This document shows positions 29,090 through 53,124 of a stretch of DNA of 64,000 nucleotides, in pieces. This DNA is from Pseudisothecium myosuroides (Eukaryota > Streptophyta > Bryopsida > Hypnales > Lembophyllaceae). The notes beneath the pieces are model-generated. The model saw nothing but the letters and a program-made list of their open reading frames with translations. It made no database searches and was not told the origin of the DNA. Numbering within the stretch: position 1 is the stretch's first letter; each line of letters starts with the position of its first letter. Position numbers and translations under genes: made by a program. The stretch is from positions 31,700,224 to 31,764,223 of the forward strand of contig OX637287.1 in the NCBI GenBank assembly GCA_951799445.1. The letters are read 5' to 3'.

Positions 29090-29225
29090 AGCGGACCAGC
29101 CAGCCCAGCAGCCAGCCAGCCCAGCAGTAACGGAGCCCAGCTGCAGTAACGGGAGCCCAGCGGCAGTAACGGAGCCCAGCTGCAGTAACGGGGGAGCCCA
29201 GCGGCAGTAACGGAGCCCAGCCACT
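29090..29225 (+). repeat. GC-rich minisatellite (GCAGTAACGGAGCCCAGC type)
   Basis: Units of about 20 bp (GCAGTAACGGAGCCCAGC) follow CCAGCCAGCCCAGCAG repeats. The homologous arrays at 50800-50940 and 32455-32570 differ in unit number and order, so the array is length-variable between LTR copies of nearly identical sequence. Confidence 0.8.
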
Positions 29226-31120: not shown

Positions 31121-31425
31121 CCTAATTTTACTCCTAAATTCTCCTTCTAATTTAAACCTAATTTCCGTCCATTGTTTCTTGTGGTTCAATTTTAATTAAA
31201 ATTCCTCCGTTCTACCCCCTAACGCTTAACTTAGCCTAACGCGGTCAGTTTACGGTCAAATCTTAATTATAAGCTGTTTTCGGAAACCTCTATCCCTAAT
31301 CTATTAACTTTTGAATCTAAACTTCTAATCTACACTAATCTTGGATGCTAATCACGCTCTAAGGGCTGATTAGGAAAATAAATGCTAATTAGGGAGAAAT
31401 ACCAAAGATTAAATCAAAAACTCAC

Positions 31426-31488
31426 CTCTTCACTACCGGTGTCGGAAATGACTTCGTCCACGTCCACGTGTACATCCTCACGCTCCAT
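31426..31488 (-). CDS. Candidate 21-codon leader exon in the LTR (ATG to splice donor)
   Basis: Minus-strand ACCATGG starts 21 codons (MEREDVHVDV... to ...TGSEE) that end at GAG|GTGAGT, a consensus splice donor. It differs from the exon at 51824-51886 by a few substitutions without disrupting frame, start or donor. This is the 3' LTR of the minus element. The 5' LTR that would drive the mRNA is truncated at 39312. Confidence 0.55.
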
Positions 31489-32084
31489 GGTAGTCTTTGG
31501 CTTTGTTTTGAATTTTTCCCCAAGCTTACCGCTTATTGAGAAAATATCACAATTTTTGATGATCTAACTCCCTCTTTCCCTTCCTCCTTTTCTTTTCTTT
31601 CTTCCCCTCTCTTCTACACTAGCACTATTCCACCTAAGCTTTTATGAGTCTTACACTATGGTTTCAAACTACGAGAAGGGTTTAAATGTTCTTCCTACCC
31701 TCTTACACAATTTGCCTTTGTGTCATCCTAATCCTCCTCCCAACGGTCACCACAAATTCTCAAGATTTCCCTCCCTAAGTCTACCTAGGCTTAGACCTAG
31801 GTTACTATTTATCGTCTCTCTCCTTTTTGTTCTCTACTTCATCTCCTTCTTCCTAATCTCCCTCCATTGCTCATGTGTGTATTTGGTTAGTTAGAATGGA
31901 GGTTTCAAGTGTGCGTGCAGGTGTGACGTGGAGGGTGCAATTATGTGTATAGGAGTGATGTGAGGTGTTGACTCTCTTCCTTCCCTTCCCTTTGTTCTTT
32001 AGTCACAACTTGGAAGTTTTGGAAGTTTTGGAAGTTTTGGCCTTGGATCCCCACTGGGTTTAACTGGTTTTCTAAACTAGCTCT

Positions 32085-32270
32085 ACCTCTGATTTCCTAA
32101 ACTAGATCTATCACTGGTTTCCTAAACTAGAGTTATCACTAGGTTCCTAAACTAGAGTTATCACTAGGTTCCTAAACTAGAGTTATCACTACTTTCCTAG
32201 ACTAGAGTTATCACTAGGTTCCTAAACTAGAGTTATCACTACTTTCCTAGACTAGAATTTTCTAAACTAG
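32085..32270 (-). repeat. 25-bp tandem repeat (CCTAAACTAGAGTTATCACTA)
   Basis: About seven units here, against about four older-looking units in the plus-element LTRs (29430-29545 and 51140-51255). This indicates recent expansion in the minus element. Confidence 0.85.
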
Positions 32271-32454
32271 GTCCTGATTAGTGGAGAGTTTTTTCAAACA
32301 AAAACCAAAGTTGGGGCCCCGCAGAGCATCATCCTGTTGTGGTCTGAAAATCAGCCATGATGCATGTGAGACATGGTCAGTCCACCCAAATCGCAAAACC
32401 GGCCAAGCTGGGGCGCTGGACAGGCACTGTACCGCCTTGGTTACCGGCCCTGTA

Positions 32455-32570
32455 TCGGTACTGCCGCTGGGCTCCGTTACTGCAACTGGGCTCCCGTTAC
32501 TGCCGCTGGCTCGCTGCTGGGCTGGTTGGTCGCTGGGCTGGCTGGTCGCTGGGCTGGCTGGTCCGTGGCA
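32455..32570 (-). repeat. GC-rich minisatellite, minus-element copy
   Basis: Inverted equivalent of 29090-29225, with TGCCGCTGGGCTCCGTTA units and GGTCGCTGGGCTGGCT units in a different arrangement. Confidence 0.75.
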
Positions 32571-33659
32571 CCACAAAATTTTTAATCACCCCAACGGGTT
32601 CCCTCAGGGGAACCCACTTAACCAATAAAAATTGGAGTTTTGGGAAAAATTAGTGTTAGAGTCAAGGCTTCGCCGTCCGGGGGTTAGGCCTGAGGTTGTG
32701 AAGCAAGACACTCGGCTTAGCAAACCACAAATACCATGGCTAGGTAACTAAACTTGGCCCACCACTTCCTACTTCATGCTAGACTCTAATATCTTGGAAG
32801 CTAAACTCTGGAGGTTTCCACAAAGGTCTTGGAAACTAGATTTTGGAACTAAAACCCGGGGGAAGTGCAAAGCTTCGCCGTTAAGTTGGTTTTAACACCA
32901 ACTTTAGGACTTCTTTGACACCTCGGGGGTTCAAGGCTTCGCCGTCTACACTTTTAACACATGTTTTAGGACTTCAACTTGTCACTAGTTCAAAGCTTCG
33001 CCGTTTTCAAGGGGGGTCCACACAATGAGAGAGACTTTAGAAGAGGGAAAACAACTAAACTTTTAACGGAAAAAAATACATAAGTTCAAAGCTTCACCGT
33101 CCCGGAGGGAGGTCCACTCAACAAGGAAAAGATTAGAAGAGGGTTTGGGATAACTTTAGGAAACGTGCACAAAAGAAGGTTCAAAGCTTCGCCGTTCCGG
33201 AGGGGGGTCCACTCAACAAAGAGAAGGTTAGAAGAGGGTGTAAGACAAAACACGAAGGAAAAAGAACACACAAGTTAGACCACGTGGCAACACAAAGCTC
33301 ACACGCTAAAGGCCCCCCAAAGCGGCATCGCCAAGGTACGGTGGGGGGTAACTTTAGGATTAGTGCAAGGTACAACAAAAGAAACTCAAACTTCACAAGT
33401 TAGACCGCAACACGTACAAGAGGGAGAGAGAAGCTCTCCACTTACAACAAGATGCCAACAACTTCACAAAAGAGTACACAAAGCAAGGTAGAAGGACCCC
33501 CAAGGACCTTCAAAGCTTGAAAATAAGCAACAATGGAACCAAAAGTGCTCCGAAAACACCGTAGAGGTTTTTGGCTTCAAACGCCAAAATATCCAAAATA
33601 ACTTGGACCCATGGACCCAAAACAAGAATTGGGGGTGTTCTAGAGAGAGAAATGGGGCC

Positions 33660-33667
33660 CTTATATA
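33660..33667 (-). promoter_or_regulatory. TATA box of the minus-element 3' LTR
   Basis: Inverted copy of the CCTATATAAGGGCCCC context, equivalent to 27983-27990. Confidence 0.65.
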
Positions 33668-35638
33668 GGTTTCCAAGGGCTCACCCCTCTCTCTAGAGTT
33701 CTAAGGTAACCTTATCAACGGGGATTTTCATCCTCATCCTCAAAGATTTTCATCCTACATCCTAAATTTCTACTTCTACCATCTATGCTGGACCAACATC
33801 CTAACTTTTGGAGATTAGCTCCAATCGTCGAACGGATTGCGCCGTTGGATCCAGAACGCCGTGTTTAGTCATAGATCCTTGTACCCCCCGTACCGAGGCC
33901 AAAAACCCATCGCAGGCTAATTTAGTTTAAAAACCAAATTGTGGTAAAATCTTAGATCTTGGGGGTCTCCTATTTTGAGAAATGTGAATAGCCTAGGGTT
34001 TCCGGTAGGTGCGAGAGAGTCGGGAAGGACTTTTGGTTGACTTTGTTTCGCCATCGTATGGTCCCGGAATGCCGGTCAACGTGGCGGGGACCCCGCCACG
34101 TGATTAATTCCCGAGGAATCTCGCCGGTTCGGGTACTTGCCGCTATCGGAATGTCGTGAAACTCCACGGAGCGCATTATTAACATAAAACAAGCTAGTCT
34201 AATTTTTAGTGAGATTTTATTGTAACCTGGGTAATTTCCATGAAATTCCCGTTGGAGGTTAGGAGACTTGACTACCCGGGAAAAAGTTCTTCTGCAAGTC
34301 GGAAGATGCCGGGATTTTTCACGTGACCTCTCAGGGAGTCGCATGAAAGACGTGCAGGTGTGTTTCCGTACCTGGCACGATTGGTCAATGGAGATTTAAA
34401 CTGGACATCTCCTTGAAGTGGCGACGGTGCGGGAATCTTCTGCAGGTGGAGGAATCTTGGCGAACCGATTTTGCCGTTGGACTCCTGGCATGGGATTCAC
34501 CCTAGAACACCATCTTTGGGCTGTAGATTCCTCCACAGGCTCGGTCTTGCGTGAGTGGCTCCTACATGTTAACAATCGGGATTTTGGGAATTCGTCGATC
34601 TAATGGGGAATTCTAAATCTAACTCTAGGAACCGACCTAGTGGCCTCGCTGTGGATCCCTCGGACCGACCTAGCCATGAATTGCCACATTCATGGTGGGA
34701 TTTAGCCCTTTTGGGGCTGTGTGAATCGAATCCCCCAAATCTAACCTTTTTCGTTATTTCTATACTATTTTTAGGCAAGGTTTGGGGGATTCTAAGTAAA
34801 AACACAAATCTAGACCAAATACTATAATGGGTATGATACAACCCTATTTCGGTTCTACATTCTTTTTATGGATTTTTGTATACTTTTATCAGCTTTAAAT
34901 TGCAAATTTCCAAAAAAATAATTCTACGAGTCCCAAGTGACAAATTGGGAGCTCACATATGGCGGCCATCTGCGGTATGATTTGCAAAATCATGAGGACC
35001 CAGCATCTCTTGCTACCACTATTTGGGTACACGGTCAATTTCGAGATCAAACCTAATGACGGACTAGAAACCAAGATGTGACTTTATCTAAAAAGATGTT
35101 ATTCCTATCAAGAGACTCTTGATGGATTAATTGACAGGGGGGAAGAGAGCAGAGGGAGTAGTCCACCTTCCAAGTGGAAGGGCTAGGGGTTGTCAAAGGA
35201 AGTTTGACCCCCGTAGACTTATCACTCATATTTTTGTTCATTTTCTATTTATTCGAGTTTTTAATTTTCTTGTTGTTTCCCCATCCGCCTCGAACGGAGT
35301 CGACTTGGATCTATAGATAAAAAATGTAAGAAAAACCCGCCATCCGCCCTCAACGGAGTGAGTTTGGATCTAAGGGGGAGATAGAAGTAGGGAGAGAACC
35401 CCTGTCCTCCTTTGATACAGCAAATCGAGACACTATAGATAAAAAATATTTCAAACCCGCCTTCCTCCCTCAACGGAGTGAGTTTGGACTAATGAGATGA
35501 AATAAAAGAAAAAAAGAAAACAGAAAGGAAAAGCATAAATGGAAAAGACAAGTGGTCTGAGACCTCAATACTCGGGAGCTTCACTTGTAAAAGTGTCTTC
35601 CGTCGTGGAGGCCGCAGCATTTCTTGCCATCTTGTCAC

Positions 35639-38264: not shown

Positions 38265-38675
38265 TTAGACCCTATATTCTTTGCATCGGGATGCATTGGT
38301 CTTGGTTGGGAACAGTGAGGTATCCAGATTTTTTAGCTGGAGGGTGTTGTTAGGAAAAGTCTCGTGTATAATATATGGCCCTGTCCACAAGGCATCGAAT
38401 TTCCCTGGAAATTCCAACTTCCTTGGATCCTGTAGTAGGACCCACATTCCGGCAGTGAGGGTACGTACCTTTGCTTTTTTGTCAAAAGCAACCTTCCTTC
38501 GCCGTTGGATGACCTCTATGTGCTGGGAGGAGAGTCGTCTTGCCTCTCCTAGGGCCTCCAATTGCTCCAACCGGTCCCGCATGGACTGGCTATCGTCCAG
38601 CCGTTCGTCAATGGCTATGCGTAGTGACTGCACTTCGAACTCAATAGGCAAGATTGCCTCGACCCCATACATCAA
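38265..38675 (-). pseudogene. Integrase C-terminal fragment (end of pol)
   Basis: The frame begins at MMYGVEAILPIEFEV, the conserved Ty3 integrase segment (usually ...YGMEAVLPIE). It continues through FDKKAKVR, GMWVLLQDPRK and FPGKFDALWTGPYII (the GPY/F module) to CKEYRV and stop. No chromodomain follows, consistent with the Tat/Athila branch and not the chromoviruses. The N-terminal zinc finger and DDE core are missing. Upstream sequence jumps to the start of ORF1 at about 38685, so this is a deletion remnant and not expressed as integrase. Confidence 0.85.
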
Positions 38676-38796
38676 GGTCGGAGTGGCCCCTAGTATCGGA
38701 AAACGGCTCAGATGATTCCGAGTCCGAGTCCCCTTCAGAGCCCTTCACATGCACCACTTGTTAGTCAAACATGCAATTGTAATCTAATGTTTTCAT

Positions 38797-38814
38797 CTCC
38801 CGGCAGACGCACCA
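38797..38814 (-). other. Primer-binding site of the minus element
   Basis: Minus-strand TGGTGCGTCTGCCGGGAG, four bases inside the 5' LTR end. It is identical to the plus-element site at 40313-40330. It is complementary to a tRNA 3' end reading CTCCCGGCAGACGCACCA, which fits plant tRNA-Gly(UCC) as I recall it. Confidence 0.8.
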
Positions 38815-38818
38815 AAAC

Positions 38819-39312
38819 TGTGGGCGCTGGATTACCCACCCTTGGTAATAGAGCGAACACCGACCAGGTTCTATGCCTTTATCCACTTTTTTAATATATG
38901 GGGGTGTTGTGAGCGCGGTCCACTGTGCCTTCCAAGCAATGGATCTTTTTTGCTAACGTTTCCTAAGTCTCGTGGATGGCAGCAAATAATTAGTAATGCA
39001 TGTAATAACTCACAAGGTAGCTGCAAGCTCAGGGGTAATGGTATACTTCTAACTCCCTAACTATCTATCCTATGTCGAGGGTAGACTGGGTAGTCGGCGT
39101 CATTTCTAACGTCCCTAACTACGTAAAAAGGGGAACCCCTATGTTCCTTCCATGAACCCCTAAGACTATCTTGGATTTTTGAGATTCCACCTAGAAGTTC
39201 TACTTTTAAAAGCTACCCCTAAAGTTCCAACTCTTACTCTAACTTTTAACTTCTAAGTATACTCTAGGTTTTTAGCTTCCCAAACTAATTAGAGAATTTA
39301 ACTTCAAAATTT
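38819..39312 (-). mobile_element. 5' LTR remnant of the minus element (about 490 bp)
   Basis: Almost identical to 29997-30490, then breaks at AAATTT (39307-39312) into plus-element LTR sequence. The remaining roughly 4.4 kb of this LTR, with its promoter and leader exon, are deleted, so the minus element has no promoter of its own upstream of its primer site. Confidence 0.9.
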
Positions 39313-40308
39313 GATCCACAAGGAACAATGGACAGAAATTAGGATTAGATTAGAAGGAGAATTAAAGATCAATTAACAGTTAAACACCTAGAATTAAATT
39401 AAGATTTTAATTAGGGAAGTCAAAAGTCAAAAGTCAAAAGTTTAGATTAAATTTAAAGGTTAAATTTTAGAGTCAATTGGGGAGTAAAAGGTTAGAGTCA
39501 AAAGCTAAAAGTAGAAGTTAAAACTTAGAGGTAGAAGTAAAATTTTAGAGTTAGTTGGAAGTAGAAAAATTGAGAGTCAAAGTGAAAACGTAGAGTCAAA
39601 CCTAGAGGTTAAAATTGGGAATTAATTTTAGAAGTAAAAATTTAGAGTTAAAAGTAAAAAACGTAGAGTTAAATTTAGAAGGGATAAATTCAGGATAGAA
39701 TAGAGGAGTAAAAATTTAGAGTTAAAAGTTAAACCTAGTGTTAAATTCCGAGGATAAAATTTCAGAGTTAAATTAGGAGTAAAAACCTTGAGTCAAAAGT
39801 CAAACCATAGAATAGAAGTCGGTAGTTAATACTTAAAGCCAAGTTAAAAGAGTAAAAATCTAGAGTTTCATGTAGAGGTTGAAACTTAGAGTAAGATTTG
39901 GACTTTAGAAGTAGTCTTTAGAAGTAGAACTTCGAGGTGGAGTCTTAGAAGCCCACGATAGTCTTAGAGGTTCGTGGAAGGAACATAGGGGTTCCCTTTT
40001 TTACGTAGTCAGGGACATTAGAAATGACGCCAACTACCTAGTCTACCCTCGACATAGGAAAGATAGTTAGGGAGTTAGAATTTCACCATCACTATGAACA
40101 TCGCGGTTAACTTGTGAGTTACTACATGCATTACTAATTATTCGCTGCCATCCACGACCCTTAGGAAACGTTAGCAAAAAAGGTCCATTGCTTGGAAGGC
40201 ACAGTGGACCGCGCTCACAACACCCCCATATATTAAAAAAGTGGATAAAGGCATAGAACCTAGTCGGTGTTCGCTCTATTACCAAGGGTGGGTAATCTAG
40301 CGCCCACA
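39313..40308 (+). mobile_element. 5' LTR of the plus element, last 1.0 kb
   Basis: Collinear with 52127-53119 of the 3' LTR and ends GCGCCCACA at 40308. It includes the degenerate repeat field, the anticodon-loop complement hairpin and the terminal hairpin (40265-40308). Confidence 0.9.
40179..40210 (+). promoter_or_regulatory. Hairpin presenting an anticodon-loop complement, 112 nt before the primer site
   Basis: ATTGCTTGGAAGGCA (40187-40201) sits in a hairpin with stem TCCATTG / CAGTGGA. The RNA loop CUUGGAAGGCA is complementary to UGCCUUCCAAG, a canonical anticodon loop with anticodon UCC. The 15-nt sequence is also present at 22721, 30104, 38926, 52998 and 61218 (and 11 nt of it at 823), in either orientation according to the LTR. 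Confidence 0.65.
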
Positions 40309-40312
40309 ATTT

Positions 40313-40330
40313 TGGTGCGTCTGCCGGGAG
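40313..40330 (+). other. Primer-binding site of the plus element
   Basis: TGGTGCGTCTGCCGGGAG begins four bases after the LTR terminus CACA. Starting with TGG it is complementary to a CCA-tailed tRNA for 18 nt. The implied acceptor end (AGACGCACCA) and T-arm (CTCCCGGC) fit tRNA-Gly(UCC) from memory. Tat and Athila elements often have TGGCGCCGTTGCCGGGG instead (tRNA-Asp). Confidence 0.85.
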
Positions 40331-40360
40331 CTGAAAACATTAGATTACATTTGCATGTTT

Positions 40361-40384
40361 GACTAACAAGTGTTGCATGTGAAG
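40361..40384 (+). promoter_or_regulatory. Candidate branch point and 3' splice acceptor for ORF1
   Basis: GACTAAC (branch A at 40366) matches the plant CTRAY consensus and lies 18 nt upstream of GAAG|GGC (AG at 40383-40384). Cutting here leaves ORF1 in phase 0, the same phase as the LTR donor GAG|GTGAGT. The site is kept in the minus element. There is little pyrimidine tract, which weakens the case. Confidence 0.4.
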
Positions 40385-41389
40385 GGCTCTGAAGGGGACT
40401 CGGACTCGAGATCATCTGAGCCGTTTTCCAATACTAGGGGCCACTCCGACCTTGAGGTGTGGGCGTCTACTTTCCACGGCATCCCCCTCAAGAATTACTC
40501 TGACTTCGAACTTGGCCAGGGAGAAGAAGGTGTTGTCCAGATAATCTCGTTAGCAGATTTGGCAACCGGGCCAAGGGCGCTAAAGATATCCTTCGAGTAT
40601 TGGGCGCATCTTGTTCGCCTCTACCTACACGACTCAAATCGGCATACTCCAGAGATTGCCCACGCAATCGCAGCAGGGTCATTTGGGGTACCGTCACACA
40701 GTTTCCACAAGCACATCTGTTTCTATTGGCACCTAGTGGTCCACTTTTGGTTTTTCGAAAATCACTATGTGAGAGAGTGTTTTGGCTCGCGACTTCCATC
40801 ACATCAGCGGGACGCGCCCTTGCAAGAGCTGCCGCACATCGACATACGCTATAAGGCCCCAAAGCCCCTCTTTGACGGCCAGTTGTATCGATTCGACGCG
40901 TCAGACATCGAAAACCTTCAGATACCGGAGAATCCCTACACTTGTCTCCAACACTTCCGATCGTGGCACGACCGCGGTGGCCATCTCACCAAAGAAGGGT
41001 GCAAGGGCATCTCGACCCGCTACGTGCCCTTTCACGCCGCCACCGTGCACCAGCTGAGCTACATCGCCGAATATCACTCAGCTTGTGAGCCGTGCCAAGA
41101 CGCCGAAGACATCCGAGTGGCGCTTAATACAGCACCGGGGCTTGAAACTTTGCATCAGCCTCGATTTCACCCTCTCTTCTATCGGTACCCGTGTCGAGGA
41201 AAGAGGACACGCTTCGTCCGTATCAAGAATGCTACGTTCTTTACGAACGAAGCCTCTTGGACTCGCCACCAAGCGTCCATCGACCGCATCGAGAGGGAAC
41301 AAGCCCCTTACTTTTTCGAATATCAGCCAACCGCTACGGAGATTGCAGCTAGCTTGGCCCTCTATGGGACAGATCTAGTACCCGTCTAA
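40385..41389 (+). CDS. ORF1 upstream of gag (Ogre-type extra ORF), no methionine codon
   Basis: An open frame of about 339 codons (open from 40370) lies between the primer site and gag. It has not one ATG, although it is free of stops and has good coding composition. It starts with an acidic stretch (GSEGDSDSRSSEPF), then a largely aromatic and His-rich region (FHKHICFYWHLVVHFWFFEN, about residues 115-135), a Cys-containing part (HSACEPCQDAEDI), and ends TDLVPV. An extra ORF before gag is a known trait of Ogre elements, whose function is not established. Translation needs a spliced upstream ATG (proposed: the LTR leader exon) or non-AUG initiation. This copy's 5' LTR has lost that exon, so expression from it is doubtful. 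Confidence 0.7.
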   Translation, partial: GSEGDSDSRSSEPFSNTRGHSDLEVWASTFHGIPLKNYSDFELGQGEEGVVQIISLADLATGPRALKISFEYWAHLVRLYLHDSNRHTPEIAHAIAAGSFGVPSHSFHKHICFYWHLVVHFWFFENHYVRECFGSRLPSHQRDAPLQELPHIDIRYKAPKPLFDGQLYRFDASDIENLQIPENPYTCLQHFRSWHDRGGHLTKEGCKGISTRYVPFHAATVHQLSYIAEYHSACEPCQDAEDIRVALNTAPGLETLHQPRFHPLFYRYPCRGKRTRFVRIKNATFFTNEASWTRHQASIDRIEREQAPYFFEYQPTATEIAASLALYGTDLVPV

Positions 41390-41507
41390 GATTTCCAGCT
41401 TGATTACGTATAGTGTGGATTTGATTTGGTATTTGTATTGTACTGACTTACTATATATATATATGCATGGATTTGATTGGTGTATCCCTCGACTCGCCTA
41501 GAGTTAG

Positions 41508-43745
41508 ATGCCACCAAAGTCTTCAAAATCCCCGAGACCCAAAAGGGTAGCACGACCGAGAGGCGGAGGTGGGAGTTCGTCCCGACTAACGCCACCAACA
41601 TCCCCTACGGCATCAATCCGGGAAGACCTTAATTCGCCCGAACCCCTAATAAGGGTAGGCTCACCAGGGAATATAGAAGAGGAAATCCACCTCCCCGAAC
41701 TTGTCGAAAGAGTAAGTGCGTCGGACTCATCCGGGGAGATGGACGGCCACGAGCCTCTTAGACCTCCTGCTCCGCTCAACGCCGGCGATGTTCCGCCAGC
41801 AGCGCCCTTTGCACTAGACATCGATCCGATGATGCTACCAAGAAGATTGCCCATCGTGGTACCGGAAGGACTGCGGGAAGTACCTATCCCTCACAACCTA
41901 CCCAGGTTTTCGGGGGATAGGGACGATGATCCCACAGCCCACGTAGAAAAGTTCGAGGAAGCTCTCATATCCAGTCTGGTCACTAACCCTGGCTACTATT
42001 TGATTTGGTTCCCCAGCACGTTGGTAGGAGCAGCTTACTCATGGTATCGATCTCATGGCGAAGGTGTGTTTACCACATACCAGCAACTTCAGACAGCCTT
42101 CCTCCGGAAGTTCCGACCGGCAACGGGGCAACAGCACGCTCTGGCCGCCCTAGACCGGATCCGTAAGGACTTCACGGAGGATGTGACTTCCTACATCACG
42201 AGATTTCAAATGGTATGTACTCGTTTCGTGGGTAATCTACTCAACAACGACACAATTCGATACTACTTCATCAAGGGGATTAACAACCCTCCACTCATCC
42301 GAGACATTCTGGCACGTAGGCCAGAAACTCTCGAGGACGCTGTCCGCGCAGCGTACGATGTCGAACTCATCGAAAAGGAGAACGATCGGATGGTACGGCA
42401 AGGGTTGGACCCCATCCCAGCTTTCATCCCGGTCCATAACCAAGGGACAAGTATGGGGCCGTACCACTCGACCACCCTCAAGGTAAATCCACTATCTACC
42501 CATGAACCCATGCTAATGCTAACCGCGCCTATTGATGAGTTACGAATAGAGATGCGGCAAGCTTCGGGGGAGATGACGCGAGCGGTGCGCAAGCTGGCCG
42601 ATCAAATGGCGTTTCTAGTTCGAGGACAAGCCCCGCCAGCTCGCCCCAGATACCATGAGTCGGGTCAACACGCAACCACCATGTGGTGCAACCATTGTGG
42701 CCAAAAAAATCACACGCCTCCCTTCTGTCCGCTGTTGAAGGACGATCCTCCACCACCACAACCGCGAGAGCCACAGCCGTATCGACATCCCAATGCCGCA
42801 CGTCAGGGACGATCCAATCCCATTGACGGATGTCCCGCTTGCAAGAGGCGACATGCTCCAGGCGACTGCTGGGCTCAAAACAACATCAGGTGCGAACGTT
42901 GTGATGGCCCCCACCCCACGATCCGGTGTACAACGGCGGATAGGGTCATTCCATTGGAATTTCCTAAAGCAGACTACGCCAAGCAGGCGCAAGACAACCA
43001 GAGAGGCGTCCGCTTTGCCGACCCCGTTGTGTCAACCGGACCACCAAATATGTACTATGACCATGCCAACAACAGACAGACACAAAAATCCCCATCGGCA
43101 GTCCAAACTGCCCAAGGTACCATTCCGTTGAACTCAGCCTTGCCCCCACAAGTGACACAGGATGCGAGATTTGTGGCAGCCACCATAGCAGAGTCCTCTA
43201 GGGCTCATGAGTGTCATCGGAGTATGTACGTCGCAGTTGAACCCGAGGGAGTCAAGCCGGCGAAGGATACCTCACGTCAAGAAGTGTTGCCCGCTCTCGT
43301 AGTCACGAGAGGAGGAGCACAAACGATCCCTCCTCCACTACCCGAGCCTGGAATTATAGATTCCCCTGACTCTAGTTCCCATAGTGGCATTCCCCTGGAA
43401 TCCTCTCAAGACTCCCCTCAGTTCTCTGACCTCCAAAGTACACTAAGGGACACGGCAAAGGAGGTACGCTCCCACGAGAATCTCCCCACTCGCACTGAGA
43501 TGGACGAGAACAAATACCAATTCGTCCAGCAGGGAGATGCCTTCCCTCCCAGGGTTCTTCCCCATCGGCCTAAAGCCCAAAGAACTAACAACCCCTCTGG
43601 CCCCTATGACTTGTGGGGGAATTTGGCACACACCAAAGCAAACATTTCCTTTGGACAGCTGGTCAAGACCTCTCCCGCCTTACGCAAGCAGCTAAAGGAG
43701 GGGGCCACCATTCCCCGCACTCCTAAGCTCGCCTCTGTTAACTGA
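41508..43745 (+). CDS. gag: gag polyprotein
   Basis: 745 residues. The retrotransposon capsid-like domain spans about residues 130-285 (FSGDRDDDPTAHVEKFEEAL, WFPSTLVGAAYSWYRS, FLRKFRPATGQQHALAALDR). Zinc knuckles follow: a CX2CX4HX4C finger at about 392-405 (CNHCGQKNHTPPFC) and two CX2CX3HX4C variants at about 440-452 (CPACKRRHAPGDC) and 462-474 (CERCDGPHPTIRC). It would package the element RNA into particles. The frame ends at a TGA (43743-43745), and the protease follows in the same frame, so either the stop is a mutation or Gag-Pro is made by readthrough. The start is the first ATG (41508), 119 nt after ORF1. Confidence 0.9.
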   Translation: MPPKSSKSPRPKRVARPRGGGGSSSRLTPPTSPTASIREDLNSPEPLIRVGSPGNIEEEIHLPELVERVSASDSSGEMDGHEPLRPPAPLNAGDVPPAAPFALDIDPMMLPRRLPIVVPEGLREVPIPHNLPRFSGDRDDDPTAHVEKFEEALISSLVTNPGYYLIWFPSTLVGAAYSWYRSHGEGVFTTYQQLQTAFLRKFRPATGQQHALAALDRIRKDFTEDVTSYITRFQMVCTRFVGNLLNNDTIRYYFIKGINNPPLIRDILARRPETLEDAVRAAYDVELIEKENDRMVRQGLDPIPAFIPVHNQGTSMGPYHSTTLKVNPLSTHEPMLMLTAPIDELRIEMRQASGEMTRAVRKLADQMAFLVRGQAPPARPRYHESGQHATTMWCNHCGQKNHTPPFCPLLKDDPPPPQPREPQPYRHPNAARQGRSNPIDGCPACKRRHAPGDCWAQNNIRCERCDGPHPTIRCTTADRVIPLEFPKADYAKQAQDNQRGVRFADPVVSTGPPNMYYDHANNRQTQKSPSAVQTAQGTIPLNSALPPQVTQDARFVAATIAESSRAHECHRSMYVAVEPEGVKPAKDTSRQEVLPALVVTRGGAQTIPPPLPEPGIIDSPDSSSHSGIPLESSQDSPQFSDLQSTLRDTAKEVRSHENLPTRTEMDENKYQFVQQGDAFPPRVLPHRPKAQRTNNPSGPYDLWGNLAHTKANISFGQLVKTSPALRKQLKEGATIPRTPKLASVN

Positions 43746-45341
43746 GTTGCGTCCCAAGTCATCCCCGAAGAGCTGGAGTCTGACCTTGAAGAGTCTACCC
43801 CACTAGTCAAGACATCCCGCAAGAACCTTCAAACCACTTTGGAGAGCTTTGAAGCGGTGGAGATTGAGGTCGAAATAGTCGACAAAATCATCCCCCGAAC
43901 CCTAGTGGATGACGGCAGTGGCGTCAACATCATGCCAGCCTATACTATGCGCAAGTTAGGTCTAGAGATTACGCACCCTTCTTGCGTGACCCTCAAATGC
44001 GCTGATCAACGATTGGTCAAGACCATTGGCCGAATCAAAGACCTCCGGATTCAGACTGGGGGAGTCGATTACATTGTCACCTTTGAAGTCTTGCCACTCA
44101 ACGAGGAGGCCACCAGTCCCTACCCATTACTCTTGGGTCGGGGGTTCCTTCGCCAATGTGGCGGGGTAGTAGACTGGGGGAAGGCCCAACCCACCTTCAC
44201 CTACGGGCCAAACGAGGCAAGGACAAAGATACCATTCGTCTCCAACAACCCAGGTCCACGGGGGCCCCAAGAGTTCGTATACACCACCATCCAAACTATG
44301 CAGGCCTCGACAACCACTGACCTAGGTAAGATGAAATGCTTAGGCTTAGGTCTGTATGGGTTGGAAGACAATACGCCATTCGAGGAATGGCTTCAAGAGC
44401 ACCCCGACTCCAGCGAAGATGCATTGGTCATCATCTGCACCTCCGCAATTCAAAACGATCCAAGCACCGCGCAGAGTACAGCTATCAAAGTTTCCACCGA
44501 TAGCTTGGATCCAGATAACGAAGCCGAATTAGCTCCTACACCAGAATCCGGCCAGAGAATGATACCCAACCACGAGGGCAGGGCAAAGGCCAACCACCAC
44601 CTTGAAGACGACCACCGAGTCCGACACGTCCCATACCGAATAGTTGCTCCACGACCACCACGTTGGCTGCAACTCGGTCCTGAGGGGACGCGGACAGCCT
44701 TCAGAGTCATGACTTCAGGTATCACTCTTCCCCACCGACGCGGGCCGCTCCGAATCACATGTCCCCGTTTCTCTGCACCTCCTAGGAACCATTACTGCGA
44801 CACGGGAGGAACATTGGTCGCCCCCAGCAACGCCCCCCACGTCATGGGCGAAGATCTACCTCCAACTCCAAACACGTCCGAGCCGATGCACTGCCAACTC
44901 CAAGAGATTGAGGATGGTGACCCGCAACCAGGGAACTATCTCAGTGATGAGGACAACAGCCCTATTGCGGTCCGCGATTTTCCATTCAACTGTCATCCTC
45001 CAGAGGGGTGGATTCCGGGAGTACATGGCGAATGGGGAGAAGTCCTAGAGCTGACCGACAAGGAAGAGATTGCCGAGACCTTGTCAGCCATGCACGAGGT
45101 AGCAACGGCCTCTGTTGGAGTCGTCTCGTACGGAATACATAATGCTCCGCACGCTTGGCAGCAGCAAGTAAGGGCTCTAGAAGCGCCAAGGGGGCAGGAG
45201 GAGGACGAGCTGCAGCCACTGGTAAGTCCTGCAGCACCTACCACTCCTGATAACCAAGAGCAACCACCCACCGGCCAGGTACGAGGTATCTCTGCCACAA
45301 CTCTCTTCCAAACCATAGCTTGTTGGTTTCTGGGCGCCTAA
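43746..45341 (+). CDS. pro: Aspartic protease and downstream linker, in frame with gag; rest of pol missing
   Basis: Continues the gag frame after one TGA; the first ATG in the segment is at 43839. The retropepsin-like active site is LVDDGSGVNIMP, followed by the typical second half (PLLLGRGFLRQCGGVVDWG). A long linker (FEEWLQEHPDSSEDALVIIC and beyond) without recognised domain follows. It ends with CWFLGA at a junction where sequence normally downstream of integrase begins: AGCTTGTTGGTTTCTGGGCG is shared with 38239-38258 of the minus element. Reverse transcriptase, RNase H and integrase are absent, so this copy could move only with help from others. Confidence 0.8.
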   Translation, partial: VASQVIPEELESDLEESTPLVKTSRKNLQTTLESFEAVEIEVEIVDKIIPRTLVDDGSGVNIMPAYTMRKLGLEITHPSCVTLKCADQRLVKTIGRIKDLRIQTGGVDYIVTFEVLPLNEEATSPYPLLLGRGFLRQCGGVVDWGKAQPTFTYGPNEARTKIPFVSNNPGPRGPQEFVYTTIQTMQASTTTDLGKMKCLGLGLYGLEDNTPFEEWLQEHPDSSEDALVIICTSAIQNDPSTAQSTAIKVSTDSLDPDNEAELAPTPESGQRMIPNHEGRAKANHHLEDDHRVRHVPYRIVAPRPPRWLQLGPEGTRTAFRVMTSGITLPHRRGPLRITCPRFSAPPRNHYCDTGGTLVAPSNAPHVMGEDLPPTPNTSEPMHCQLQEIEDGDPQPGNYLSDEDNSPIAVRDFPFNCHPPEGWIPGVHGEWGEVLELTDKEEIAETLSAMHEVATASVGVVSYGIHNAPHAWQQQVRALEAPRGQEEDELQPLVSPAAPTTPDNQEQPPTGQVRGISATTLFQTIACWFLGA

Positions 45342-46800
45342 ACCATAATTGGTTACGATTATTAATAATATAAGGTTAGCCTTATATTATAGATGATTGT
45401 GTAAAAGGCCTATTTAGCCGTCCAAACAAAAAAATTTAATAGCTAACCTCTTATTATTCACGACAGATAGTAAGAAAACTAGAAAAAAACCCAAAAAATA
45501 CCAAAAAAAAAAAATGAAAGCTTGAAAAACCATTGAAAATCCTAAAAAAATTGAAGGTTCTAAAAGTTCACTATTGCATGATCTCCCAAATCCCTATGGG
45601 ATTTTAGAATTAGAAAAAACACAGAGAGGTGGTTGTTATTTCGGGACCAAGTCAAGATTTTAACAGTCTCTACTTTCTGGCACAGAGTGGTGGTTGTTAT
45701 TTTGGGACTAATCCATCTACCCCTTGGGAAGAATCAAGAATATTAAGATTCTTGAGGATGGTTCACATCTAACGTAAAAGTAAAAGCCGCGGGGCCAAAA
45801 GCCGCAAGGCCAACCAACTTTGTTGACCGTTCTAGCTTGCCTAACTCTCAGTAGGACAGGAATACATCGAGTGTGTTGGGAACTGCTCACACTTGAGCCC
45901 AACACATGAGTGTGTTGGGAACTGCTCAGACCTGAGCCCAACACATCACCAACCTGTCAGAGTTAGCGTCATGTGGAAGACAGATGACCTTTCACTTAGA
46001 TTAAATACTTGTCAGACCGACATAATAGAAGCCACATAGTCGGATGAAAGGGCGGCTGAAAGTTGACACTCGTCCCTTGCTAGACTGTCGAACCTGCTAA
46101 TATGCTAACGAGGCGGCTAGTTTAAGAAGGGGCATTGGCGCTCGTCCCTTGCTAGACCGTCGAACCTGCCGATGTGCTAACGAGGCGGCTAGTTTAAGAA
46201 GGGGCACTAGATACTAGACCGTTGTAATAATGCAGAAGGCTTAAAAAACGGCTAGTTTAGGACTGACACCTTACATCATGTCCCCCACGTTAGGGTATAA
46301 GAATGAGGGGGGCAGCCCTCGTACTTTTAAGCTACTGGTAGCGTCATGTGCAGGTACCGCTTGAGTAACACATGGACCATGGATGGTTCAACCCGCCAAC
46401 AGTCTTACCAGTCGCGCTTCAGATCAAAATTCTCTGTGTTGAGAAACGCAGCTTCTCCCACTTCCTCATCTCTCACTTCGGTTTTAATTTCTTCCTCCGT
46501 GTGCTTCAGCATCCTTGGCCTGTGCAGATTCCCGTTGTTAACTATGGAGAGATCTGGGAAAGCATCATCTACGTCCTAGTCTAGCATTTTCTCGAACAGC
46601 GGAGTGATTTCACAGTCTTCGGGTGCCGGCGCCCTTCTATCTCCCCCCTGCCCTGTCTTCGTTATCTTCTCCTCGCTTATTTCCCTACATGTCGTCCTTG
46701 GTTCACATTCTTCCTCTTGTTCAGTCTCCTCAGGCTTCTTCTTTTTCAAAACCTACCCTAGCAGGACGAACCGTCAGTTACCATTCACAGTTGCATAGAA
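45342..46800 (+). other. 3' non-pol region of the plus element: hairpins and tandem repeats
   Basis: Contains a 10-11-bp hairpin TAATATAAGG/CCTTATATTA around TTAG (45365-45390), the tandem 35-nt hairpins (45872-45906, 45911-45945) and two units of the 72-bp repeat (about 46070-46210). Then comes sequence nearly identical to the minus element until about 46680. A good polypyrimidine-AG (CTTCTTTTTCA..CCCTAGCAG, ending 46764) precedes the accessory ORF and is conserved in the minus element. Confidence 0.65.
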
Positions 46801-46802
46801 TC

Positions 46803-47447
46803 ATGCCAGGAAGGAGAGATGAGTTCCGGGAGCGGTCGCCCTCGGAATCATCATTACAATCAACACCGTCGTCTTCTTCCCTGCCATTTTATCTAGTTGG
46901 GTCTACCATAGGGCCATCTTCACCGGCGCCAGCTACAGCAGCAGAGGCGGAAGAAGAGGCCCTAACACAATCCCTCACCGAAGTTCAGTCACTATCACCA
47001 GAAACCGCCACACCACCAGAGCTTCTAGTGCGCCAGCCATCGGAGGAGCAGACGTCGGAACCAGCAGCTCGTGCTGTTGAAGAAGAACCTGAGCCTCCCC
47101 AGCCCAACCCACGCCGAAGACGCCGCGAGGAAGAGGAGCAACCTCACCGCAGTCCACCTCCGCGTCATAATCCATGGGGCATCCAAATGGCTGGCTTGGA
47201 ACCAAACCGGGCATTTGCACTCCTGGTGCAAAACTTGCGAGACGAGGAAACAGGCGAAGATACTATACTCTTGCGCCAATTCGTCAACCCAAACGATAGC
47301 ATTATCATCGAGAGCCCGGATGACGAAGTCCATAGATTCACGCCAAGGGGGCCCTTGGAGATTCTCCCCAGGCATGATCGAGCACTTTGCATCGTCCAGA
47401 TTGTGATAAGCTTGGCTGCATTCCTGGGTATCATGCAAGACCCCTGA
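46803..47447 (+). CDS. Accessory ORF of the retrotransposon, plus-element version (214 aa)
   Basis: The frame is open from 46623. The start at 46803 (MPGRRDEF) is preferred because it gives the same length as the minus-element homologue (210 aa). The N-terminal half is Ser/Pro/Glu-rich. A basic-acidic hinge RRRRREEEEQP lies at about residues 108-118, followed by a more regular C-terminal domain (FALLVQNLRDEE, RGPLEILPRHDRA, VISLAAFLGI). It sits where an env gene would be but has no signal peptide or anchor. It is not recognised as any named family. The strong divergence from its homologue contrasts with the near-identical flanks. Confidence 0.6.
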   Translation: MPGRRDEFRERSPSESSLQSTPSSSSLPFYLVGSTIGPSSPAPATAAEAEEEALTQSLTEVQSLSPETATPPELLVRQPSEEQTSEPAARAVEEEPEPPQPNPRRRRREEEEQPHRSPPPRHNPWGIQMAGLEPNRAFALLVQNLRDEETGEDTILLRQFVNPNDSIIIESPDDEVHRFTPRGPLEILPRHDRALCIVQIVISLAAFLGIMQDP

Positions 47448-47488
47448 TCTCCTCGGCATTCCTTGTCCCACCCTTGTATATACTTATT

Positions 47489-47522
<34 letters not shown>

Positions 47523-48406
47523 CCTTGCCACTGTGCAATAGGGGAGGGACCGGTCCAACACCGACACCGACTTATATATCACTGGAGCAGACCGACGGAC
47601 GTCTTCCGCCGCGACGCCGGCAGTTTGTAGACCGCAGCTTCATCGCGGTAAAGATACCTCAATTTTCCCTTGGCGACGCAGGTTCGAACCTCGAGCCAGG
47701 CACCGGGGCGCCCCCTATCTGAGCTAGTGACAAGATGGCAAGAAATGCTGCGGCCTCCACGACGGAAGACACTTTTCTAAGTGAAGCTCCCGAGCATTGA
47801 GGTCTCAGACCACTTGCCTTTTCCATTTATGCTTTTCCTTTCTGTTTTTCTTTTTTTCTTTTATTTCATCTCATTAGTCCAAACTCACTCCGTTGAGGGA
47901 GGAAGGCGGGTTTGAAATATTTTTTATCTATGGTGTCCCGATTTGCTGTATCAAAGGAGGACAGGGGTTTCTCTCTCTACTTCTATCTCCCCCTTAGATC
48001 CAAACTCACTCCGTTGAGGACGGATGGCGGGTTTTTTATATTTTTTATCTATAGATCCAAGTCGACTCCATTCGAGGCGGATGGTGAAACAACAAGAAAA
48101 TTAAAAACTAGAATAAATAGAAAATGAACAAAAATATGAGTGATAAGTCTACGGGGGTCAAACTTCCTTTGACCACCCCTAGCCCTTCCACTTGGGAGGT
48201 GGACTATTCCCTCTGCTCTCTTTCCCCCTGTCAGTTAATCCATCAAGAGTCTCTTGATAGGAATAACATCCTTTTAGATAGAGTCGCATCTTGGTTTCTA
48301 GTCTGTCATTAGGTTTAATCTCGAAATTGACTGTGTACCCAATAGTTGTAGCAAGAGATGCTGGGTCCTCATGATTTTGCAAATCATACCGCAGATGGCC
48401 ACCATA
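47448..48406 (+). other. 3' untranslated segment of the plus element
   Basis: Contains a pure A tract (about 47491-47520) where the minus element has an interrupted A-rich tract. It also has the inverted A-box/B-box pair, repeated GTTGAGGACGGATGGCGGG-like motifs (47890-48090) and an ATGATTTTGCAAATCAT dyad just before the LTR. No classical polypurine tract is visible next to the LTR (the last bases are GGCCACCATA). Confidence 0.6.
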
Positions 48407-49696
48407 TGTGAGCTCCCAATTTGTCACTTGGGACTCGTAGAATTATTTTTTTGAAAATTTGCAATTTAAAGTTGATAAAAGTATACAAAAATCCATAAAA
48501 AGAGTATAGAACCGAAATAGGGTTGTGTCATACCCATTATAGTATTTGGTCTAGATTTGTGTTTTCTACTTAGAATCCCCCAAACTTTGCCTAAAAATAG
48601 TATAGGAATATCGAAAAGGTTAGATTTGGAGGATTCGTGTCACACAGCCCCAAAAGGGCTAAGTCCCACCATGAATGTGGCGATTCATGGCTAGGTTCGT
48701 CCGAGGGATCCACAGCGAGGCCACTAGGTTGAGTCCTAGAGTTAGATTTAGAATTCCCCATTAGATCAACGAATTCCCAAAATCCGGATTGTTAGCATGC
48801 AGGAGCCACTCACGCAAGACCGGGCCCGTGGAGGAATCTACAGCCCCAGGATGGTGTTCTAGGGTGAATCCCATGCCAGGAGTCCAACGGCGAAATCGGT
48901 TCGCCAAGATTCCTCCACCTGCAGAAGATTCCCGCACCGTCGCCACTTCAAGGAGATGTCCAGTTTAAATCTCCATTGACCAATCGTGCCAGGTACGGAA
49001 ACACACCCGCACGTCTTTCATGCGACTCCCTGAGAGGTCACGTGAAAAATCCCGGCATCTTCCGACTTGCAGAAGAACTTTTTCCCGGGTAGTCAACTCT
49101 CCTAACCTCCAACGGGAATTTCATGGAAATTACCTAGGTTACAATAAAATCTCACTAAAAATTAGACTAGCTTGTTTTATGTTAATAATGCGCTCCGTGG
49201 AGTTTCACGACATTCCGATAGCGGCAAGTACCCGAACCGGTGAGATTCCTCGGGAATTAACCACGTGGCGGGGTCCCCGCCACGTTGACCGGCATTCCGG
49301 GACCATACGATGGCAAAACAAAGTCAACCAAAAGTCCTTCCCGACTCTCTCGCACCTACCGGAAACCCTAGGCTATTCACATTTCTCAAAATAGGAGACC
49401 TCCAAGATCTAGGATTTTACCACAATTTGGTTCTTAAACTAAAGTAGCCTGCGATGGGTTTTTGGCCTCGGTACGGGGGGTACAAGGATCTATGACTAAA
49501 CACGGCGTTCTGGATCCAACGGCGCAATCCGTTCGGCGATTGGAGCTAATCTCCAAAAGTTAGGATGTTGGTCCAGCATAGATGGTAGAAGTAGAAATTT
49601 AGGATGTAGGATGAAAATCTTTGAGGATGAGGATGAAAATCCCCGTTGATAAGGTTACCTTAGAACTCTAGAGAGAGGGGTGAGCCCTTGGAAACC

Positions 49697-49704
49697 TATA
49701 TAAG
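49697..49704 (+). promoter_or_regulatory. TATA box of the 3' LTR
   Basis: TATATAAG in the CCTATATAAGGGCCCC context. In this copy it could drive transcription into the flanking DNA. Confidence 0.65.
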
Positions 49705-51823
49705 GGCCCCATTTCTCTCTCTAGAACACCCCCAATTCTTGTTTTGGGTCCGTGGGTCCAAGTTATTTTGGATATTTTGGCGTTTGAAGCCAAAAACCTC
49801 TACGGTGTTTTCGGAGCACTTTTGGCTCCATTGTTGCTTATTTTCAAGCTTTGAAGGTCCTTAGGGGTCCTTCTACCTTGCTTTGTGTACTCTTTTGTGA
49901 AGTTGTTGGCATCTTGTTGTAAGTGGAGAGCTTCTCTCTCCCTCTTGTACGTGTTGCGGTCTAACTTGTGAAGTTTAAGTTTCTTTTGTTTGTATCTTGT
50001 ACTAATCCTAAAGTTACCCCCCACCGTACCTTGGCGATGCCGCTTTGGGGGGCCTTTAGCGTGTGAGCTTTGTGTTGTCACGTGGTCTAACTTGTGTGTT
50101 TTTTTTCCCTTCGTGTTTTGTCTTACACCCTCTTCTAACCTTCTCTTTGTCGAATGGACCCCCCTCCGGGACGGCGAAGCTTTGAACCTCCTTTGTGCAT
50201 GTTTCCTAAAGTTATCCCAAACCCTCTTCTAATCTTCTCCTTGTTGAGTGGACCCTCCTCCGGGACGACGAAGCTTTGAACCTATGTGTTTTTTTTTCTC
50301 TTTCTTTAAAAGTTTAGTTGTTTTTCCCTTTTCTAAAGTCTCTCTCATTGTGTGGACCCTCCTTGGAAACGGCGAAGCTTTGAACTAGTGACAAGTTGAA
50401 GTCCTAAAACATGTGTTAAAAGTGTAGACAGCGAAGCCTTGAACCCCCGAAGTGTCAAAGAAGTCCTAAAGTTGGTGTTAAAACTAACTTAACGGCGAAG
50501 CTTTGCACTTCCCCCGGGTTTAGTTCCAAAGTCTAGTTTCCAAGACCCTTGTGGAAACCTCCAGAGTTTAGCTTCCAAGATATTAGAGTCTAGCATGAAG
50601 TAGGAAGTGGTGGACCAAGTTTAGTTACCTAGCCCTGGTATACGTGGTTTGCTAAGCCGAGTGTCTTGCTTCACAACTTTGGGCCTAACCCCCGGACGGC
50701 GAAGCCTTGACTCTAACACCAATTTTTCCAAAACTCCAATTTTTATTGGTTAAGTGGGTTCCCCTGAGGGAACCCGTTGAGGTGATTAAAAATTTTGGAG
50801 TGCCAGCGGACCAGCCAGCCAGCGGACCAGCCAGCCAGCGGACCAGCCAGCCCAGCAGTAACGGAGCTCAGCTGCAGTAACGGGAGCCCAGCGGCAGTAA
50901 CGGGAGAGCCCAGCGGCAATAACGGAGCCCAGCCACTGCGGTACAAGGCCGGTACAGGGCCGGTAACCAAGCCGGTACACTGCTTGTCCAGCGCCCAACC
51001 TTGGCCGGTTTTGCGATTTGGGTAGACTGACCATGACTCACACACATCATGGCTGATTTTCAGACCACAACGGGATGATGCCCTGCGGGGCCCCAACTTT
51101 GGTTTTTTGTTTGAAAAAACTCTCCACTAATCAAGGCCTAGTTTAGAAAATTAGTTATAGATCTAGTTAGGAAGTTAGTGATAGATCTAGTTTAGGAAAT
51201 TAGTGATAGATATAGTTTAGGAAATCAGAGATAGAGCTAGTTTAGAAAACCAGTTAAACCCAGTGGGGATCCAAGGCCAAAAATTCCAAAACTTCCAAAT
51301 TGTGACTAAAAGAAAAACAAAGGGAAGGGAAGGAAGAGAGTCAACACCTCACATTACTCCTACACACCTAATTGCACCCTCCACGTCACACCTGCACGCA
51401 CACTTGAAACCTCCATTCTAACCAACCAAATACACACATGAGCAATGGAGGGAGATTAGGAAGAAGGAGATGAAGTAGAGAACAAAAAGGAGAGAGACGA
51501 TAAATAGTAACCAAGGTCTAAGCCTAGGTAGACTTAGGGAGGGAAATCTTGGGAATTTGTGGTGACCGTTGGGGGGAGGATTAGGATGACACAAAGGCAA
51601 ATTGTGTAAGAGGGTAGGAAGGACATTTAAACCCTTCTCGTAATTTGAAACCATAGTGTAAGACTCATAAAAGCTTAGGTGGAATAGTGCTAGTGTAGAA
51701 GAGAGGGGAAGAAAAAAAAGAAAAGGAGGAAGGGAAAGAGGGAGTTAGATCATCAAAAATTGTAATATTTTCTCAATAAGCGGTGAGCTTGGGGAAAAAT
51801 TCAAAACAAAACCAAAGACTACC

Positions 51824-51886
51824 ATGGAGCGTGAGGATGTACACGTGGACGGGGACGAAGTCATTTCCGAGACCGGTAGTGAAGAG
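51824..51886 (+). CDS. Candidate 21-codon leader exon in the LTR (ATG to splice donor)
   Basis: ACCATGG (good plant start context) opens 21 codons, MEREDVHVDG... to ...ETGSEE, ending exactly at GAG|GTGAGT. The peptide is acidic like the beginning of ORF1 (GSEGDSDS), and the phases agree. It is 2.1 kb after the TATA box and 1.23 kb before the LTR end. In a full-length element the intron would remove the rest of U5, both conserved hairpins and the primer-binding site. Confidence 0.55.
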
Positions 51887-53124
51887 GTGAGTTTTTGATT
51901 TAATCTTTGATGTTTCTCCCTAATTAGCATTTATTTTCCTAATCAGCCCTTAGAGCGTGATTAGCATCCGAGATTAGTGTATATTAGAAGTTTAGATTCA
52001 AAAGTTGATAGATTAGGAATAGAGGTTTCCAAAAACAGCTTATAATTAAAATTTGACCGTAAACTGACTGCATTAGGCTAAGTTAAGCGATAGGGGGTAG
52101 GATGGAGGAATTTTAATTAAATTTGATCCACAAGGAACAATGGACAGAAATTAGGATTAGATTAGAAGGAGAATTAAAGATCAATTAACAGTTAAACACC
52201 TAGAATTAAATTAAGATTTTAATTAGGGAAGTCAAAAGTCAAAAGTCAAAAGTTTAGATTAAATTTAAAGGTTAAATTTTAGAGTCAATTGGGGAGTAAA
52301 AGGTTAGAGTCAAAAGCTAAAAGTAGAAGTTAAAACTTAGAGGTAGAAGTAAAATTTTAGAGTTAGTTGGAAGTAGAAAAATTGAGAGTCAAAGTGAAAA
52401 CGTAGAGTCAAACCTAGAGGTTAAAATTGGGAATTAATTTTAGAAGTAAAAATTTAGAGTTAAAAGTAAAAAACGTAGAGTTAAATTTAGAAGGGGTAAA
52501 TTCAGGATAGAATAGAGGAGTAAAACTTAGAGTTAAAAGTTAAACCTAGAATTAAATTCCGAGGATAAAATTTCAGAGTTAAATTAGGAGTAAAAATCTA
52601 GAGTCAAAAGTCAAACCATAGAATAGAAGTCGGTAGTTAATACTTAAAGCCAAGTTAAAAGAGTAAAAATCTAGAGTTTCATGTAGAGGTTGAAAATTAG
52701 AGTAAGATTTAGACTTTAGAAGTAGTCTTTAGAAGTAGAACTTCGAGGTGGAGTCTTAGAAGCCCACGATAGTCTTAGAGGTTCATGGAAGGAACATAGG
52801 GGTTCCCTTTTTTACGTAGTCAGGGACATTAGAAATGACGCCAACTACCTAGTCTACCCTCGACATAGGATAGATAGTTAGGGAGTTAGAATTTCACCAT
52901 CACTTTGAACATCGCGGTTAACTTGTGAGTTACTACATGCATTACTAATTATTCGCTGCCATCTACGACCCTTAGGAAACGTTAGCAAAAAAGATCCATT
53001 GCTTGGAAGGCACAGTGGACCGCGCTCACAACACCCCCATATATTAAAAAAGTGGATAAAGGCATAGAACCTGGTCGGTGTTCGCTCTATTACCAAGGGT
53101 GGGTAATCTAGCGCCCACACTTGG

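Follow-up and report, generated by a model that had tools for sequence, protein, structure and literature searches.

In the moss Pseudisothecium myosuroides, a Ty3/gypsy-type retrotransposon family has a separate gene, ORF1, ahead of gag, and the first coding exon of ORF1 probably lies in the long terminal repeat (LTR), from where splicing would join it to the rest of the gene. We place the probability of this reading at about 0.8. The family was analyzed from a window of 64,000 nucleotides (assembly GCA_951799445.1, contig OX637287.1, positions 31,700,224 to 31,764,223 of the forward strand), which holds an element, A, and a second element, B, nested in it. Positions below are those of the window (Table 1), and a slash marks a predicted splice boundary. 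The sequence provides the exon, its donor, a branch-point-like site, an acceptor, agreement of phase, constraint on both exons, and an ORF1 that in most copies has no start codon. From these we infer that transcription crosses the exon, that the splice sites are used, and what becomes of each RNA.

In the proposed mechanism, RNA would initiate upstream within the 5' LTR and be spliced from GAG/GT in the LTR to AAG/ just past the primer-binding site (PBS). The spliced RNA would encode ORF1 with an LTR-derived start codon and an N-terminus of 17-21 residues. The predicted intron would take out the remainder of U5 and the tRNA-Gly(UCC) primer site, and because both would be lost, the spliced RNA could be translated but not reverse transcribed. 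The unspliced RNA would retain the PBS and serve as the genome and, probably, as the gag message. A preceding sequence-only reading of the window had proposed both the LTR-encoded first exon of a spliced mRNA and the removal of U5 and the primer site with the intron. The first proposal gains support from the acceptor, the phase, the constraint and the position of the exon upstream of ORF1 in many elements, and the second agrees with the location of the PBS inside the predicted intron.

Four exon segments had been described in the window, and re-reading of the sequence returned the same segments, strands, codon counts (21, 21, 21 and 17), donors and phase 0. The distance of 1.17-1.23 kb given from donor to LTR end held for three copies (1236, 1171 and 1194 bp) and failed for the copy at 31426 (1429 bp). 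The distance of 1.86-2.13 kb given from the TATA box held for the one LTR checked, where TATATAA, the only motif searched, lies at 49697, 2127 bp upstream of the exon.

In the window copy, the frame behind the PBS is open over 40367-41389 and contains no Met codon anywhere. The genome searched for ORF1 and for the exon was that of the window (388 Mb). For ORF1, 119 of 191 candidates were scored, and the 121 matches listed comprise a main family, 90-97% identical, and further matches whose identity is mostly 40-57%. Twenty main-family loci were fetched, 18 of them readable at the ORF1 start; 16 of these 18 copies have no Met in ORF1, and the other two have a single one, at residues 245 and 287. 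Met is likewise absent from ORF1 of subfamilies s42 (341 codons) and s45 (325 codons); in s44 the first Met is at residue 120, and in s50 the frame stops after 25 codons. Among ten copies without internal stops (45 pairs), nonsynonymous divergence (dN) is 0.024 and synonymous divergence (dS) 0.163, a ratio of 0.15. No Pfam family matched ORF1 in the six members scanned at E up to 1, the comparison with PDB sequences gave a chance-level match only (E 0.56), and a fold search against PDB returned nothing at E up to 0.001 and one match at E 8.3; the AlphaFold model is poor (mean pLDDT 58.5). Nine relatives were found in other data sets, all unnamed proteins, and none was confirmed in viral or prokaryote contigs. 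Two relatives (P0007 and P0008) begin V-K-G and a third (P0009) M-I-K-I-V-K-E; with codons inferred from these residues, GTG AAG probably precedes ORF1 in all three as well.

An exon starting at 40385 had also been implied by the sequence-only reading, and the predicted acceptor there stood up: it precedes the start-less gene in phase 0, with CTAAC at a distance of 18 nt upstream, and it is found again in diverged subfamilies and, as far as residues tell, in the relatives. The search pattern favored branch-point/AAG-type ends; with it, an AAG/ acceptor was present in all 18 main copies read, and the branch-point-like site matched YTRAY in 17 of them (CTAAC in 11). The subfamilies have a similar branch point followed by GTGAAG/ (s42, s45 and s47) or TTATAG/ (s44), again in phase 0, so that the predicted intron keeps a similar end and the exon that follows differs. 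The pattern located the acceptor in 16 of 18 loci, in which the predicted intron is 1408-2610 nt long and GC content is 0.48-0.59 in exon 1, 0.33-0.35 in the intron and 0.53-0.54 in exon 2, a step like that described for plant introns in an excerpt of PMC3735527. The tRNA end complementary to the PBS occurs at five genome places; two of these were fetched, and ARAGORN identifies each as a tRNA-Gly(TCC) gene. Two minimal upstream open reading frames (uORFs) lie between the PBS and ORF1, at 40355-40366 (ATG TTT GAC TAA) and 40377-40382 (ATG TGA). At 41505-41510, an in-frame TAG is followed by the gag ATG, so that AG/ATG forms a phase-0 acceptor for the LTR exon; this is a possible alternative acceptor.

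Constraint on the exon was measured on 25 copies of its two main versions, chosen by peptide motif: version 1, MEREDVHVDVDEVISDTGSEE/GTGAGT, in 14 copies (one with GTAAGT), and version 2, MEHEDAHVDGDDVISDTSSNE/GTGGGT, in 11 copies (one with GTGGGC); within each version, single residues vary. Mean differences between the versions are 2.3, 3.0 and 9.5 at first, second and third codon positions, and 7 of the 10 fixed differences fall at third positions (p=0.02). The dN/dS check that had been proposed for the 63-nt segment gave about 0.12 between the versions (dN 0.164, dS 1.36; dS not computable in 21 of 110 pairs). In an alignment with the diverged cassette, the exon is gap-free, and windows starting 88 and 48 columns upstream of it consist of 71% and 51% gaps. 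Judged by these comparisons, this LTR segment is under coding-type constraint.

Genome-wide, with up to three mismatches, the type-1 start region has 978 matches, the exon type at 23787 has 135 and the type at 1912 has 5. Of the 20 main-family loci fetched together with the downstream gene, 18 have an intact exon in their 5' LTR; in one exception (L029) the match to the LTR passes over the exon region, and in the other (L037) the 5' LTR is rearranged. The exon is also intact in 7 of 10 diverged loci (L041, L042, L044, L046, L047, L048 and L050). L045 has ATA in place of the exon ATG, and no exon appears in the stretches fetched for L043 and L049; the stretch for L049 also lacks the PBS, yet at 4.9 kb upstream of the L049 ORF1 there is a 23787-type exon. 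Representatives of all five exon types have GAG before GT, and four of the five have the form GTRRGY; single copies with GAA or AAG in place of GAG exist. Among the listed places of the 23787-type exon (about 100 of 135), two have ATA for ATG and none without GT was seen. The roughly 1000 LTR copies are presumably mostly dead and decaying neutrally, and for this reason a count of ATG and GT decay across all of them says little.

Exon and ORF1 types are found in several combinations. Three loci with an ORF1 42-45% identical to that of the window (L047, L048 and L050) have type-2, type-2 and type-1 exons, respectively, and main-type ORF1 is found with type-1, type-2 and once a 23787-type exon, in compatible phase. 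In at least seven places, ORF1 is preceded at 1.25-1.70 kb by a 23787-type exon on the same strand, and one of these places has main-type ORF1. This was found by eye from two match lists in which about 100 of the 135 exon places were given. LTR type and ORF1 type are shuffled across L041-L050, which may be a sign of recombination or template switching.

Several observations weigh against an LTR-borne first exon. ORF1 of subfamily s47 has an in-frame Met at residue 11, and relatives P0001, P0003 and P0009 have one near the ORF1 start. The 1912-type exon has no listed ORF1 match near any of its five genome places, and L037 retains an open ORF1 though its 5' LTR lacks the exon. The donor of L044, GTATTC, is weak, and of its two siblings L060 has the same exon and the stretch of L059 does not. 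The nearest TATATAA is 2.1 kb upstream of the exon, with 14 ATGs in between. The exon is 76% identical between types, against 91-94% for LTR stretches 110-290 columns downstream, as though the versions shared most of the LTR through recombination. The spliced junction of type-1 exon and main ORF1 occurs nowhere in the genome at up to three mismatches, and among the 40 of 1188 candidates that were scored with a 149-nt probe, no spliced retrocopy spans the junction. Such an absence is expected of a spliced RNA that cannot be copied, fits a lack of splicing equally well, and is no proof of either. Lastly, when the unspliced frame is followed past GAG, it closes at precisely the fourth codon in type 2, in the L044 type and in every exon type found in the window.

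This last observation bears on the main rival to splicing, which we consider rather unlikely: a conserved LTR uORF whose peptide of 20-24 residues would control translation of the unspliced leader, with ORF1 either started from a non-AUG codon or not a separate protein. The five exon types would give the peptides M...EEVSF, M...NEVGH, M...YEVGP, M...SEVSY and M...PEVFF, each stopping exactly at the fourth codon after GAG; the third-position bias is compatible with any peptide, and a short way ahead of ORF1 the window copy has in-frame near-cognate codons, GTG and TTG. What a uORF leaves unexplained is GAG before GT in all five type representatives with GTRRGY in four, as well as the branch-point-like site with its AG and the end of conservation at the exon edge. 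Furthermore, an in-frame TAG adjoins the acceptor in the L044 subfamily, so that a non-AUG start there must sit inside the exon. By analogy with rice tungro bacilliform virus, a conserved uORF and a spliced exon can both hold.

A start of ORF1 at its own ATG near the acceptor, lost in the window copy, is distinctly less probable. It would suit the relatives P0001 and P0003, which begin MKDEGES and MALHFKD, and P0009 with its upstream Met, as well as the Met at residue 11 in s47 and the out-of-frame ATG at 40377. That ATG is no accident of the window copy, since the start-stop ATGTGA adjoins the acceptor in all 18 main-family copies read (the pattern favored such ends), and s47 and L046 lack its equivalent. 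In collections of this kind, protein calls usually begin at a start codon, which favors a chance Met or, as P0007 and P0008 suggest, GTG. Pure chance, with a random reading frame that happens to end at a GT of this repeat-rich LTR, is very unlikely: dinucleotide shuffles of a single LTR of this size contained any ATG with 15-25 open codons and GAG/GTRRG in 7 of 400 cases and in none of 400 starting in the 1.10-1.35 kb zone, and the segment is conserved across two diverged cassettes, shows codon-position bias and is placed ahead of a gene without a start codon.

AUG triplets are scarce in ORF1 as well. Counted in all three frames, ATG occurs 3, 2, 0 and 5 times in the ORF1s of four subfamilies against a Markov expectation of 8.9-11.6, and protein-preserving shuffles of the same four give 4.8-8.2 expected (P 0.023, 0.016, 0.003 and 0.079). 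Subfamily s44 is near normal (16 against 18.2 expected), so that ORF1 is AUG-depleted in four of five subfamilies and strictly AUG-free in one only. The gag, protease, reverse transcriptase (RT) and integrase (INT) frames show no depletion (ratios 0.99-1.28), and CAT, the reverse complement, reaches 12-22 occurrences in these ORF1s, a raw count without a computed expectation. The low AUG content suggests scanning through ORF1 to gag, and it is the one line of evidence for the scanning half of a combined model that we put forward tentatively: the LTR exon would start ORF1 in the PBS-free spliced RNA, and on unspliced RNA ribosomes would, after the short LTR uORF, scan the AUG-poor ORF1 to the gag AUG. 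If so, one set of LTR splice sites would decide between ORF1 protein, Gag and genome; to our knowledge, such a splice-and-scan strategy is otherwise known only from a plant pararetrovirus. Between exon 1 and the acceptor, one locus of 16 still has 24 ATGs and the other 15 have 6-12 each. A shunt-type stem past the LTR uORF was looked for and not established: in minimum-energy structures, one per locus for five loci and computed with no control, a paired stretch begins 0-8 nt past the uORF stop, and its partner is local (around 340-360) in three loci and far downstream in two.

Assignment to Ty3/gypsy (Metaviridae) follows from the LTR pairs, the PBS for tRNA-Gly(UCC), gag and a pol order of RT-RNaseH-INT, given in relative L063 by RVT_1, RT_RNaseH, Integrase_H2C2 and rve. 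L063 is a single pol-bearing relative; its scanned frames hold no second, archaeal-type RNase H, the mark of Tat/Ogre, at E up to 0.01, and its scanned INT frame holds no chromodomain. By these two tests on one relative, the family appears to be neither Tat/Ogre nor chromovirus. Most chromoviruses have a PBS for tRNA-Met, unlike the tRNA-Gly site here. The plant mobile domain, present in the extra ORF of many Ogre members, was not found in ORF1 (none of six members with a Pfam match at E up to 1), and no ORF scanned matched the Athila ORF-1 domain, which is present in part of the Athila members. In the excerpt of a plant survey consulted here, tRNA-Gly is not among the PBS types named (PMC6317226).

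The sequence-only reading knew of no described plant LTR retrotransposon with a coding exon in its LTR, and searches of a library of open-access papers turned up none. The comparisons that follow hold for the excerpts of the sources cited. The nearest described plant element appears to be Diaspora (Athila clade, soybean), for which splice donors were predicted within the LTR and acceptors close to where gag begins; there the splicing is a prediction only, no coding exon or conservation is shown, and its authors stated in 2005 that an intron upstream of gag had not been reported until then (PMC1142308). Rice tungro bacilliform virus (Caulimoviridae, Tungrovirus) offers a likeness of mechanism, not membership: a short leader uORF holds a donor spliced to the distant ORF IV, and scanning ribosomes traverse long ORFs without internal AUG. 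It differs as an episomal pararetrovirus without LTRs (PMC5902531), and its AUG-free ORFs and its spliced ORF are separate genes, whereas here both would be ORF1. In foamy viruses, which are animal retroviruses, the R region of the LTR contains the major splice donor, and no LTR coding exon is described (PMC3694450). Ogre and other OTA elements share extra ORFs, non-chromovirus LTRs of up to about 5 kb and, in Ogre, splicing; Tat members differ in their second (archaeal) RNase H, not found here, and ORF1 contains no plant mobile domain (PMC6317226). BARE1 (Ty1/copia) uses splicing and alternative transcripts to keep the RNA it translates apart from the RNA it replicates, with no LTR exon described (PMC3735527). 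In rice, Retrosat2, RIRE3 and RIRE8 combine long LTRs, of at least about 3 kb, with an unassigned ORF0 that precedes gag-pol, much as ORF1 precedes gag here; no splicing or LTR exon is described for them (PMC3485330).

It has long been asked how an LTR retrotransposon allots a single RNA to both translation and replication. If the LTR exon is real, the translated and replicated RNA pools would be mutually exclusive, since the primer site is lost in the very splice that yields the ORF1 message. A ready start codon and a donor that could be joined to downstream host sequence would then be on offer in all of the roughly 1000 LTR copies, including solo LTRs. Gene finders that depend on ATG will miss such genes, and the LTRs of giant elements with start-less extra ORFs therefore deserve re-examination.

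Table 1. Features of the 64,000-nucleotide window; splice-related entries are predictions.
Feature	Position	Strand	Remarks
Exon 1, type 1 (MEREDVHVDGDEVISETGSEE)	51824..51886	+	in 3' LTR of element A; 21 codons; donor GAG/GTGAGT
Predicted 5' splice site GTGAGT	51887..51892	+	phase 0; unspliced frame stops at 4th codon past GAG
Exon 1, type 1	31426..31488	-	in 3' LTR of nested element B; 21 codons; GAG/GTGAGT
Exon 1, another LTR type (MAEGWNLDRLIQDLQYE/GTGGGC)	23787..23837	-	17 codons
Exon 1, third LTR type (MANEGELEGIYDYLNNDTNSE/GTAAGT)	1912..1974	-	21 codons
PBS	40313..40330	+	exact complement of tRNA-Gly(UCC)+CCA 3' end; inside predicted intron
Branch-point-like CTAAC	40363..40367	+	18 nt upstream of predicted acceptor
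Predicted 3' splice site (GTGAAG/G)	40383..40384	+	phase 0
ORF1 exon 2	40385..41389	+	334 codons plus stop; no Met codon; no Pfam match
gag ORF (Retrotrans_gag)	41508..43745	+	gag ATG directly after in-frame TAG
Protease ORF	43746..45341	+	aspartyl protease matches under curated cut-off
Element A 5' LTR, first part	26693..29996	+	97.9% identical to A 3' LTR
Element A 5' LTR, last part	39294..40308	+	98% identical to 52108-53119
Element A internal part	40309..48406	+	from self-comparison and ORF lists
Element A 3' LTR	48407..53122	+	from self-comparison
Nested element B 3' LTR	29997..34957	-	from self-comparison
PBS, branch point, acceptor and start of ORF1 in element B, second set	38661..38818	-	

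The LTR pair of element A is about 98% identical, and its 5' LTR is interrupted by element B. The exon-bearing segment is missing from this 5' LTR, between its two parts, at the junction with B. At 39274-39294, an inverted junction joins the truncated 5' LTR of B to the remainder of the A 5' LTR, with about 400 bp of A LTR missing. The ORF list contains no long pol frame in element A. A further ORF of 279 aa without a Pfam match lies in the internal part of A (46608-47447, plus strand), and at the matching place in B a frame (35964-36611, minus strand) is weakly similar to it by eye. Tandem repeats of 72 bp and 39 bp occupy 37236-37716 in the internal part of B and 45864-46206 in that of A, respectively. 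Outside both elements, frames at 12437-14054 resemble a lectin receptor kinase, the kinase part by eye and B_lectin by a weak match below cut-off, and are probably a host gene.
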